Shown here piece by piece: positions 7,219 through 62,379 of a stretch of DNA of 64,000 nucleotides. The translations under genes were made by a program, and so were the position numbers. Every line of letters begins with the position of its first letter. Within the stretch, counting starts at the first letter, position 1. Where the stretch lies: contig JAJYYK010000004.1 in assembly GCA_021801025.1 (NCBI GenBank), positions 62,001-126,000 on the forward strand, read 5' to 3'. Below the pieces are notes generated by a model. That model had not been told where the DNA came from. It worked only from the letters and a program-made list of their open reading frames with translations, and did not search any database. Source of the stretch: Pseudomonadota bacterium (GTDB lineage: Bacteria > Pseudomonadota > Gammaproteobacteria > Burkholderiales > Sulfuriferulaceae).

Positions 7219-8361
7219 TTAGGACGCTTTATGACGAAAGGTACGCATCATTTGCACAAAGCGATCAAACAAACCGGCTACATCGTGTGGCCCAGGACTG
7301 GCTTCAGGGTGTCCCTGAAAACCGAATGCGGGCACATCGGTACGCTCAACCCCTTGCAAGGAGCCATCGAACAGCGACACATGCGTTTCGCGCAAGATGT
7401 CGGGAAGTCCATTGGAATCGACAGAAAAACCATGATTCTGACTGGTGATCATCACTCGCCCGCTGTCCAAATCTTTGACCGGATGGTTAGCACCGTGATG
7501 ACCGAATTTCATTTTGACAGTTTTTGCACCGGAAGCCAGTGCCAGTAACTGATGCCCCAAACAAATACCAAAAATCGGAATACCGCTGGTTAATAATTGT
7601 TTAATCGCCGTAATGGCATAATCACAGGCTTCCGGGTCACCGGGGCCATTGGACAAAAAGATGCCATCCGGACACAGTACAAGCACGTCTTCCGCACTGG
7701 CCTGGGCGGGCAAAACCGTCACGCGACAACCGCGCCCCGCCAGCATACGTAAAATATTGCGCTTTACCCCATAGTCAAATGCGACGACATGCCAGGGCTG
7801 ACCGGCAGGCGTTGTAAAACCGCCCTCAAGCTGCCACTCGCCTTCGGTCCATTCATAAGGGGCTGTCACAGAGACCTCTTTGGCCAAATCCATGCCGACC
7901 AAACCAGAAAATGCTTGGGCCTGCCGCAAGGCATCCGCTTCATCTATGTCACCGGCCATGATACAACCAGCTTGCGCACCACGTTCACGCAACAGGCGCG
8001 TCAGGCGCCGTGTATCGATATCCGCAATCGCCACCACATGATGTTGTATTAAATAACTTTCCAAATCGCCAGAAGAACGATAGTTGCTTGACAATAATGG
8101 TAAATCCCGCACCACCAAACCTGCTGCATACAAGGCAGCAGATTCACAATCTTCAGTATTGACGCCAGTATTACCAATGTGCGGACAAGTCAAAGTCACA
8201 ATCTGTCGTGCGTACGAGGGATCAGTCAAAATCTCCTGATAGCCAGTTATGGCGGTATTAAACACCACCTCACCCACTGCAACACCCGATGCACCAATGG
8301 CCGAACCACGGAACACCGAACCATCAGCCAACACAAGAACAGCGGGACATCGTTGCGACAA
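7219..8361 (-). CDS. carA: Carbamoyl-phosphate synthase small (glutaminase) subunit
   Basis: CarA hydrolyses glutamine and channels ammonia to CarB. The 380-residue protein has the CPSase small-chain N-domain followed by a class I glutamine amidotransferase. The nucleophile Cys is in [14 protein letters not shown] and the His/Glu pair in [11 protein letters not shown]. The start is TTG at 8361, supported by TGAGGTAA five bases upstream. The nearby ATG at 8350 is out of frame. A short CCTAAC/GTTAGG dyad lies in the 58-bp carA-carB gap. It is the first gene of a long minus-strand run. Confidence 0.96.
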
Positions 8362-8593: not shown

Positions 8594-8704
8594 AGCAATG
8601 AGGTCACCGGCCTTCAGGCCGGTGGATATTTTAGTCAGGGTGGGGTTCGGCACTCCTGCCGGCCTGAAGGCCGGGATTTTAAACCAGCAAGGAAAAAGGA
8701 TAAA
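8594..8704 (+). repeat. Structured dispersed repeat, copy A (HEARO/omega-RNA-like)
   Basis: This 111-bp unit is nearly identical to 27773-27883. It folds into three successive hairpins. The first is CACCGGCC-TTCA-GGCCGGTG (8605-8624). The second pairs GGTGGGG with CTCCTGCC. The third is CCGGCC-TGAA-GGCCGG (8659-8674). A single-stranded tail follows, TTTTAAACCAGC then AAGGAAAAAGGATAAA, which looks like a ribosome site awaiting a start codon. Compared with copy B, stem 1 carries a C-G to T-A compensatory change. By memory of the family, the layout resembles the noncoding RNA upstream of IscB/IsrB genes; that link is an inference, and no such gene follows. Confidence 0.75.
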
Positions 8705-14890: not shown

Positions 14891-15898
14891 ATGCTATGGA
14901 TCAATTTAGTCATCTTTCTGATTCTTATTCTGCTGGCAGCGGAAATTTTCGTCAACGCGCTGGAACACTTGGGTGAAGCGTTGCATATTTCTGAAGGGGT
15001 GACTGGATCCATATTTGCCGCTGTAGGCACCGCTTTACCAGAAACCATTGTCCCTTTGTTGGCCATTGCTGCTGGCGGAGGCAACGCTTCAACCAATCAA
15101 GACATTGGCACAGGTGCCATTTTGGGCGCACCCTTGATGCTGTCCACGCTGTCAGTGTCATTACTGAGCTTCACGGTATGGCGGAAGCGTGGCATCAAGG
15201 GTACTTACACCCCTGAACGCGGAGGAATAACTCGCGACCTCAACACCTTTCTTGCCGCATTCAGCCTTGCTTTGCTCAGCATGTTCGTGCCGCATGATCA
15301 TAGTGCCGCGCGCGTAATGATGGCGTTTATACTGGTCTTCATTTATTTTATTTATGTCCTCGTCACCTTGCACGCTTCCAAAAATCTGGTTGAAGTGGGC
15401 CATGGCACGAAAACGGAATCGACTTTGTTGCTGACACAAACAGGCCTACCCAAACACCTGATCATCATCCTGTTACAGCTGTTAGTCGGCTTGGGGTTGC
15501 TGGTAATGGGTGCCAGAGGGTTTATCACGAGCATTCAACAAGCAGCCCCCTTACTTGGTATTTCCGCCTTGCTACTTTCACTCATGATCGTGCCTATTGC
15601 CACCGAACTGCCGGAAAAAATCAACAGCATCCTTTGGATACGCCGTAGTAAAGACACGCTGGCTTTCGGCAACATCACTGGTGCCATGGTGTTTCAAGGC
15701 ACACTGTTGCCTGCCATGGGAATTGCGTTGACACCATGGACAGCGCAACCTGCCACTTTACTGAGCATGCTCATCACGTTAGCGGCTGCTGTCTGGTTGC
15801 GTCTGTGTCTGGCGCGAGGTCAGCTGCATATCTGGCAACTGTGGGTAAATGGCGCATTGTACGTATTGTACCTGGGTCTGGTTCTACTTCATGCCTAA
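14891..15898 (+). CDS. Sodium/calcium exchanger (CaCA) family membrane protein
   Basis: This 335-residue protein has about ten hydrophobic segments and the two inverted alpha-repeats of the CaCA superfamily: GSIFAAVGTALPETIVPLLAI (about 40-60) and MIVPIATELPEKINSILW (about 233-250). The acidic residue in each (L)PE is the expected ion ligand. The ATG at 14891 has GGGGG about nine bases upstream. Which cation is moved cannot be told from sequence. The stop TAA at 15896-15898 touches the left end of the MITE-like element. Confidence 0.85.
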   Translation: MLWINLVIFLILILLAAEIFVNALEHLGEALHISEGVTGSIFAAVGTALPETIVPLLAIAAGGGNASTNQDIGTGAILGAPLMLSTLSVSLLSFTVWRKRGIKGTYTPERGGITRDLNTFLAAFSLALLSMFVPHDHSAARVMMAFILVFIYFIYVLVTLHASKNLVEVGHGTKTESTLLLTQTGLPKHLIIILLQLLVGLGLLVMGARGFITSIQQAAPLLGISALLLSLMIVPIATELPEKINSILWIRRSKDTLAFGNITGAMVFQGTLLPAMGIALTPWTAQPATLLSMLITLAAAVWLRLCLARGQLHIWQLWVNGALYVLYLGLVLLHA

Positions 15899-16165
15899 GG
15901 GCTCGTGAATGAATAACTGTCACATACGCTGGGACCGCTTTGGGCGCAGGCCAAGGCGCAAGATGCGCGGTTGTGTCATTCACAACAAGCGACTTGCAAC
16001 ACCGGGATGTGCCCAAAGCGGCCCCAGCCCACCGGGTTGCTGCGTATTCGGGTGTCTGCGGCGTTGCGAGGCTTGCAAAGGGAATCACCATTCGCTGCGC
16101 CTCGCGCCTTGCATCCATCCCGAATACACAGCAACGTATGTGACAGTTATTCATTCACGAGCCCT
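15898..16165. mobile_element. MITE-like element with 31-bp perfect terminal inverted repeats
   Basis: A 268-bp element is bounded by perfect 31-bp inverted repeats (15898-15928 and 16135-16165) beginning AGGGCTCGTGAATGAATAAC. Inside are two more long dyads: 15929-15945 with 16011-16027 (CTGGGACCGCTTTGGGC and its near-complement), and 16036-16054 with 16116-16135. Together they would fold as a three-way cruciform. The short open frames inside are by-products of the palindromes. No clear target duplication is visible. It sits between the exchanger gene and pilR, and its right end encodes the pilR C-terminus. Confidence 0.8.
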
Positions 16166-27772: not shown

Positions 27773-27883
27773 AGCAATGAGGTCACTGGCCTTCAGGCCA
27801 GTGGATATTTAGTCAGGGCGGGGTTCTGCGCTCCTGCCAGCCTGAAGGCCGGGGTTTTAAACCAGCAAGGAAAAAGGATAAAA
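27773..27883 (+). repeat. Structured dispersed repeat, copy B (HEARO/omega-RNA-like)
   Basis: This matches copy A over 111 bp with about ten differences. Hairpin 1 is CACTGGCC-TTCA-GGCCAGTG (27784-27803), a compensated C-G to T-A change relative to copy A. Hairpin 2 pairs GGCGGGG with CTCCTGCC. Hairpin 3 is CCAGCC-TGAA-GGCCGG with one mismatch. The tail AAACCAGCAAGGAAAAAGGATAAA is identical. It lies between convergent genes, and no ORF of the IscB or TnpB kind follows. Confidence 0.75.
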
Positions 27884-61794: not shown

Positions 61795-62379
61795 TCACCC
61801 CGCCTTTTTCGTGTTGATTTTACGTTCCGATTCAATTTTATTACTCGTGGTATTCACACGCAGACTAAATTCGTAAGCCTGCATATTTTGCACCGTAGCC
61901 GCCTTGATTTCTATCAACTCGGCATGCGTCAGCCAGGGCGATCCGTTTAAATTGTTCATCAGAGTAGAGACCCTCGCGCTGGATTGCGCAAACCCTTGCA
62001 AATTCACGGTATCCCCATGCTGATCGACTGATTCAAGATAAACACCATCGGGCATCAGCCGGACCAATTGATCCAGTAAATGCGCCGCATCTGACCGGTC
62101 TGTTTGCAAGGATTCCACCAGCTGTTTGTGAGCCAGCATTTCCTTGGTTTGTTGTTTTAAGTTCTTGATTTCACCAATTTTTTTGTCTAATTTGGCAATT
62201 TCGGCGGTTAAATAATCATTACGTGCATGTTGCGCGGATAAGCGCACTTTAATCCCCATGCTAACCAAAATAACCACCCCGACACCAACAAGCAATACCC
62301 CGCCCACCAGAACGAGGAATTGCCGTAAACGTGCGGCATAGCGAATTTCCCTGTAAGGAAGTAAATTCATGCGTATCAT
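61795..62379 (-). CDS. pilN: Type IV pilus assembly protein PilN
   Basis: PilN carries the conserved cytosolic tail MNLLPYREIR (residues 4-13) that docks into PilM. A membrane segment (about 22-45), a coiled coil (about 50-85) and a periplasmic domain follow. The total of 194 residues is typical. The ATG at 62379 overlaps the pilM stop by 4 bp. Confidence 0.96.
   Translation of the reverse strand: MIRMNLLPYREIRYAARLRQFLVLVGGVLLVGVGVVILVSMGIKVRLSAQHARNDYLTAEIAKLDKKIGEIKNLKQQTKEMLAHKQLVESLQTDRSDAAHLLDQLVRLMPDGVYLESVDQHGDTVNLQGFAQSSARVSTLMNNLNGSPWLTHAELIEIKAATVQNMQAYEFSLRVNTTSNKIESERKINTKKAG

Follow-up and report, generated by a model that had tools for sequence, protein, structure and literature searches.

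In the transposons IS608 and ISDra2, the targets TTAC and TTGAT, respectively, lie 5' of the element's left end, and the IS608 guide AAAG reads TTAC through interactions of A+16 with T-3 and of A+17 with T-4 (PMC5934647). In Haloquadratum walsbyi, core deletions of the so-called PATEs (palindrome-associated transposable elements) leave a form of about 52 bp that consists of the termini only, and strain-specific insertions are found although nearly all the tnpA genes are broken (PMC3119063). In parallel, ATAAA is known as an IscB TAM (PMC13180657). Here, we describe a repeat with two copies, A and B, in a window of 64,000 nucleotides (positions 62,001 to 126,000 of contig JAJYYK010000004.1), which is probably a PATE, that is, a non-autonomous IS200/IS605-type element moved by TnpA in trans. 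It is directly seen that the dispersed copies have common ends and a one-sided five-base target without target duplication, and that they carry conserved hairpins and occur in internally shortened forms keeping both ends. The PATE reading is of the ordinary kind, and the anatomy is well resolved.

Counted together with ATAAA, the unit noted in the preliminary description spans 111 nt in copy A (8594-8704) and 110 nt in copy B (27773-27882); both copies are indeed present, with the second ending at 27882 and not at 27883, and their features are collected in Table 1. The compensated change reported for the first stem, from CACCGGCC/GGCCGGTG to CACTGGCC/GGCCAGTG, was confirmed, while the TTCA and TGAA loops, described as constant, are the same in copies A and B but vary in relatives (TTTA, TAAA, CATA). 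As single-stranded DNA, both strands out-fold dinucleotide shuffles, with z values from -3.2 to -5.3. The three consecutive hairpins proposed earlier are real, but the best fold pairs the first with the last, instead of leaving three separate hairpins; these two hairpins are mutual inverted repeats, and the element termini are not inverted repeats. Copy A lies between the gene for the carbamoyl-phosphate synthase small chain and an OsmC gene, and copy B has a methyltransferase-like gene on one side and a gene of the phosphoribulokinase/uridine kinase family on the other. In G009, a sister genome about 91% identical to G000 (the 2.38-Mb own genome of the window), the orthologous site of copy A is also occupied, and therefore this is an old copy; copy B is absent from its syntenic place there, where the empty site has diverged (ACAAG).

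Table 1. Positions, in the window, of the two copies, their hairpins and their target sites.
Feature	Position	Strand	Basis or remark
Empty target, ATAAA on minus	7228..7232	-	G009 has a 157-bp copy exactly 5' of ATAAA
Copy A of the element	8594..8699	+	106 bp; 110/162-bp family; written AGCAATG...AAAAAGG
First hairpin of copy A, CACCGGCC-TTCA-GGCCGGTG, the transposon right-end hairpin	8605..8624		sequence; covariation
Last hairpin of copy A, CCGGCC-TGAA-GGCCGG, the transposon left-end hairpin	8659..8674		sequence; covariation
Proposed left guide AAAA of copy A, 5' of the left-end hairpin	8677..8680	-	sequence; IS608 pairing rule (PMC5934647); inference
Transposon left end of copy A	8699	-	
Target TTTAT (ATAAA on plus) flanking the left end of copy A	8700..8704	-	insertion-site comparisons
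Copy B of the element	27773..27877	+	105 bp
First hairpin of copy B, CACTGGCC-TTCA-GGCCAGTG	27784..27803		C-G to T-A relative to copy A, compensated
Last hairpin of copy B, CCAGCC-TGAA-GGCCGG	27837..27852		sequence; one A.C mismatch
Target TTTAT (ATAAA on plus) flanking the left end of copy B	27878..27882	-	

A similarity search of G000 with the repeat gave 49 matches, the best non-self one at an E value of 5.5e-45, far beyond chance. There are about 45 copies in this genome, mostly intergenic, and for 37 of them both ends could be resolved, AGCAATGAGGTCACC...GGTTTTAAACCAGCAAGGAAAAAGG, with ATAAA or a variant next to the latter, besides truncated copies. The complete copies share these ends and have nested lengths of 59, 79, 90, 110, and 162 bp, the differences being due to internal hairpins, with the length classes found in G000 being 59 bp (8 copies), 79, 89-90 (5 copies), 107, 110-111 (13 copies), 119, and 154-164 bp (8 copies). 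Judging from their sequences, the short forms resemble a 162-bp form that has lost internal blocks, and inspection shows TTCAGG, GGGGTT, and similar short direct repeats at the putative deletion junctions. A second subfamily, of four copies, has other stem sequences and keeps the hairpin order and the ATAAA end. Intergenic placement holds for 39 of 41 copies; by the same ORF rule, 84% of the surrounding sequence is coding. The repeat is carried by five of the 18 genomes of the genus (G000 and four of the 17 other species), with the family-level sample consisting of this genus alone. When 84,980 genomes were scanned with the 30-base 3' end, a scan from which the window's own record was maybe excluded, only two MAGs matched, DBS2-4.bin140 and DBS1-3.bin12. 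Plasmid 2 of Polaromonas sp. JS666 carries a 74% relative (L308:220-375), the sole match among plasmids; it lies immediately upstream of an IclR-family gene, and its hairpins follow the order of the repeat but have other stem sequences. Phage records searched with the repeat gave no match.

The insertion site was defined by comparing the two sister genomes, given that several sites filled in G000 are empty in G009. At the clean junctions, the element lies immediately 5' of a pre-existing ATAAA or a close variant, without target duplication, and some empty sites (L010, L021, L124, and L142) have diverged beyond reading. Two copies interrupt a second dispersed repeat, CCGGATTTTGCATAAATT, exactly between GGATTTTGC and ATAAATT (the right half of one of these two loci being taken from the copy listing), and three uninterrupted copies of this target of the element were found in the own genome (L286:17043, L289:9713, and L295:9418). 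Across 79 copies, five bases of the right flank are conserved, with ATAAA exact in 58 of them and the sequence nearly random from base six onward, and the left flank is random save for an excess of C at position -1. From these junctions and the flanks of the 79 copies, it follows that the last five bases of the tail once likened to a ribosome site are target DNA. That tail is, therefore, the element end plus its ATAAA target, and the earlier likeness survives only in an RBS-like position at a few loci: AAGGAAAAAGG could act as a ribosome-binding site at L067, L065, and L071 of the own genome, because an ORF begins there 0-3 bp after the 3' end. This is the case in just 3 of 41 copies, and a mobile ribosome site was rejected for that reason. 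Elsewhere in the window, at 15898-15931 and 16132-16165, there is a 34-bp inverted repeat, 97% complementary and 200 nt apart, and this stretch (15898-16165) probably forms a short element of its own, with terminal inverted repeats; a similar inverted repeat adjoins the empty site of L065 in G009, and a further G009 copy has a flank that matches the same stretch.

The helices were assessed by aligning 37 distinct long forms; the rows of this alignment are related, and the counts are not independent. In the five helices, 91% of the pairs are Watson-Crick, compared with 27-42% when the partners are slid by one to three columns, and 13 pairs changed on both sides, compared with 4-8 in the slid controls. 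The constraint on structure suggested earlier is upheld by these figures. The last stem of copy B has an uncompensated A.C pair. The mismatches include 53 G.T and 40 A.C, and since these numbers are similar, there is no clear sign of selection on one RNA strand. Compensated changes may also have arisen by intrastrand template correction of palindromes.

On the minus strand, the proposed layout would read TTTAT^CCTTTTTCCTTGCTGGTTTAAAACC-[hairpin]-...-[hairpin]-ACCTCATTGCT^, and we infer movement as a single strand: a Y1 (HUH) transposase TnpA, provided in trans, would recognise the single-stranded top strand by binding its subterminal hairpins, base interactions with the AAAA guide, located 5' of the left hairpin, would lead it to the cleavage site, and the excised strand would then be joined 3' of another TTTAT. 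In IS608, the last base of the guide pairs with the last base of the target. From the IS608 rule, the pairings AAAG/TTAC and AAAA/TTAT both fit, and the repeat has AAAA; by inspection rather than biochemistry, its left cleavage site obeys the rule, with TTAT facing AAAA. The putative guide of subfamily B is AAGA, in which the third guide base alone is changed, and at the right end, TTGCT, no guide obeying the rule was recognised by inspection.

As for a mobiliser, 12 of the 18 genus genomes have Y1 transposase genes, among them the carriers G000 (one TnpA and four RAYT-like genes) and G010, and none was found in G005, G009, and G011, which are draft MAGs and three of the five carriers. The Haloquadratum PATEs, with their broken tnpA genes, present a comparable puzzle (PMC3119063). 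No autonomous element with the ends of the repeat was found among the Y1/TnpB loci, nor in about 0.8 Mb of G009, where an end pair 2.5 kb apart was considered as such an element and rejected, as it consists of a degenerate end beside an ordinary copy of the 59-bp type. By a noisy GC-skew proxy, a lagging-strand bias is absent, with 26 of 45 copies in G000 and 11 of 26 in G009. Post hoc, 17 of the 20 copies in the 90- and 110-bp classes of G000 lie in the direction expected for a lagging-strand template, but we set this result aside because the whole set and G009 disagree with it. A lagging-strand preference is dispensable for membership among the PATEs. The main points that speak against the PATE reading are, then, the carriers that yielded no Y1 gene, the lack of a transposase locus with matching ends, the missing strand bias, the right end without a recognised guide, and the empty sites that have diverged too far.

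The preliminary description had likened the repeat to a HEARO or omega RNA, its solo copies perhaps acting in trans or being left-end relics. On this view, it would be a remnant of an IscB/IsrB (ISC) transposon, with a plus-strand omega RNA from AGCAATGAGG, a guide from the left flank, and ATAAA as the 3' TAM. A random left flank with ATAAA on the right is the layout of IscB elements too, ATAAA is recorded as an IscB TAM (PMC13180657), and the long form has several covarying hairpins, as omega RNAs do. Given that ATAAA is shared in this way, the insertion geometry alone cannot split the IscB and PATE readings, but the remaining evidence does separate them. The covariance-model scan of the repeat against Rfam gave no match at gathering scores, with HEARO (RF02033) missing even from the permissive lists; no RRXRR (IscB) gene was found in the 18 genus genomes (control genomes silent); and the repeat has no adjoining nuclease gene. 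The same RRXRR query over the class matched in 11 of 369 genomes, and the IscB loci fetched from these have only short hairpin pieces in common with the repeat, mostly of 16-26 nt, the DNA upstream of IscB being otherwise dissimilar. Against an IscB/IsrB remnant also stand the one-hairpin 59-bp forms, which are dispersed just as widely, and the G.T mismatches, which are not clearly above the A.C ones. The HEARO/omega-RNA identity was thus rejected on the Rfam scan, the gene search, and the comparison with IscB upstream DNA, and an ISC remnant is, in our judgement, quite improbable; from the idea of relics, the mobile-element origin is retained, but the repeat is a mobile unit with defined ends and not a left-end stub.

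Many intergenic copies of a hairpin repeat, with first and last hairpins mutually inverted as in REPINs, and four RAYT-like genes in G000 could also point to a REP/REPIN-like repeat moved by RAYT (TnpA_REP), a domesticated Y1 transposase. However, the flanks of the RAYT genes in G000 carry other sequences and lack the repeat, and RAYT was ruled out as the mobiliser on this ground; the carrier G009 yielded no Y1 gene, the hairpin foot has no GTAG/GGAG, and the unit exceeds the REP length and has a strict five-base target, all of which leaves this origin very unlikely. The RAYT-like genes L034 and L035 of the own genome are bounded by their own inverted sequences, of the GGGGTCAG type, and form a separate system. 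Some other duplication-free enzyme, such as an IS91-type Y2, IS110, an IS607-type serine recombinase, or an undescribed one, might be the mover, in keeping with the missing matching Y1 gene in three of the five carriers, the existence of copies that retain only the 3' end, and the Polaromonas plasmid relative with its same hairpin order and other stems. Nevertheless, the one-sided target is the pentanucleotide of the IS605-type element in the sister genome, which also shares the guide motif, and Y2_Tnp was not matched in the carriers (control silent), the result on which the IS91-type Y2 was rejected; we give such a mover only a slim chance. The hairpin order is kept across the two subfamilies and the Polaromonas relative despite their differing stem sequences, and that the multi-hairpin unit is moved by an undescribed enzyme in Y1-free lineages, or itself acts as a structured nucleic acid, seems to us rather unlikely.

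If the repeat is a PATE, as we prefer, dozens of structured intergenic repeats that resemble small RNAs or ribosome sites would be transposon ends plus their target, and this Pseudomonadota genus would provide a new PATE family in which internally shortened forms make up a clear series. The 59-bp copies with one strong hairpin would also be a case of how little DNA a single-strand transposon needs, and a single genus would offer a natural case in which target and guide change in concert, TTTAC going with AAAG and TTTAT with AAAA. The TTTAC side is that of the IS605 element of G000 (TnpA L060:3217-3633, TnpB L060:2014-3195), in which TTTAC and AAAAG precede the hairpin. A TnpB-bearing IS605-type element of G009 (L254:992-2378) sits 3' of TTTAT without duplication and has an exact empty site in G000, GACCAGTTTAT directly followed by TTTGAG (L302 region, G000 C5 near 13494); its left end is CAGTGGCGCGTAAAACC plus a hairpin, with AAAA before the left hairpin. 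This element shares with the repeat the TTTAT target and the AAAA before a GC-rich left hairpin, and its left end matches an internal hairpin of the 162-bp form with 92% identity over 25 bp, whereas it differs in its terminal sequences, its right end AGGATGTCAA, and its own tnpB.

Compared with IS608 and ISDra2, the repeat likewise inserts 3' of a short target that stays at the left flank (TTTAT in the repeat), with subterminal hairpins, no duplication, and a putative guide tetranucleotide before the left hairpin, but it has neither tnpA nor tnpB, and its movement is a prediction. REP/REPIN repeats resemble it as many-copy intergenic hairpin repeats, and differ in the hairpin foot, the neighbouring RAYT genes, and the target, as described above. 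As expected of a PATE, it is short, non-coding, and dispersed, with common ends, near-terminal palindromes, no terminal inverted repeats, and a one-sided short fixed target without duplication; the palindromes and the target are common to IS605-type elements of the host lineage, and the terminal sequences differ. The PATEs of Haloquadratum walsbyi are alike in being too short to code, in lacking terminal inverted repeats and target duplication, in their near-terminal palindromes related to IS605-type elements, and in their core deletions (PMC3119063). They differ in their sequences and in their archaeal host, and, unlike them, the repeat of this bacterium has several hairpins and a graded length series.
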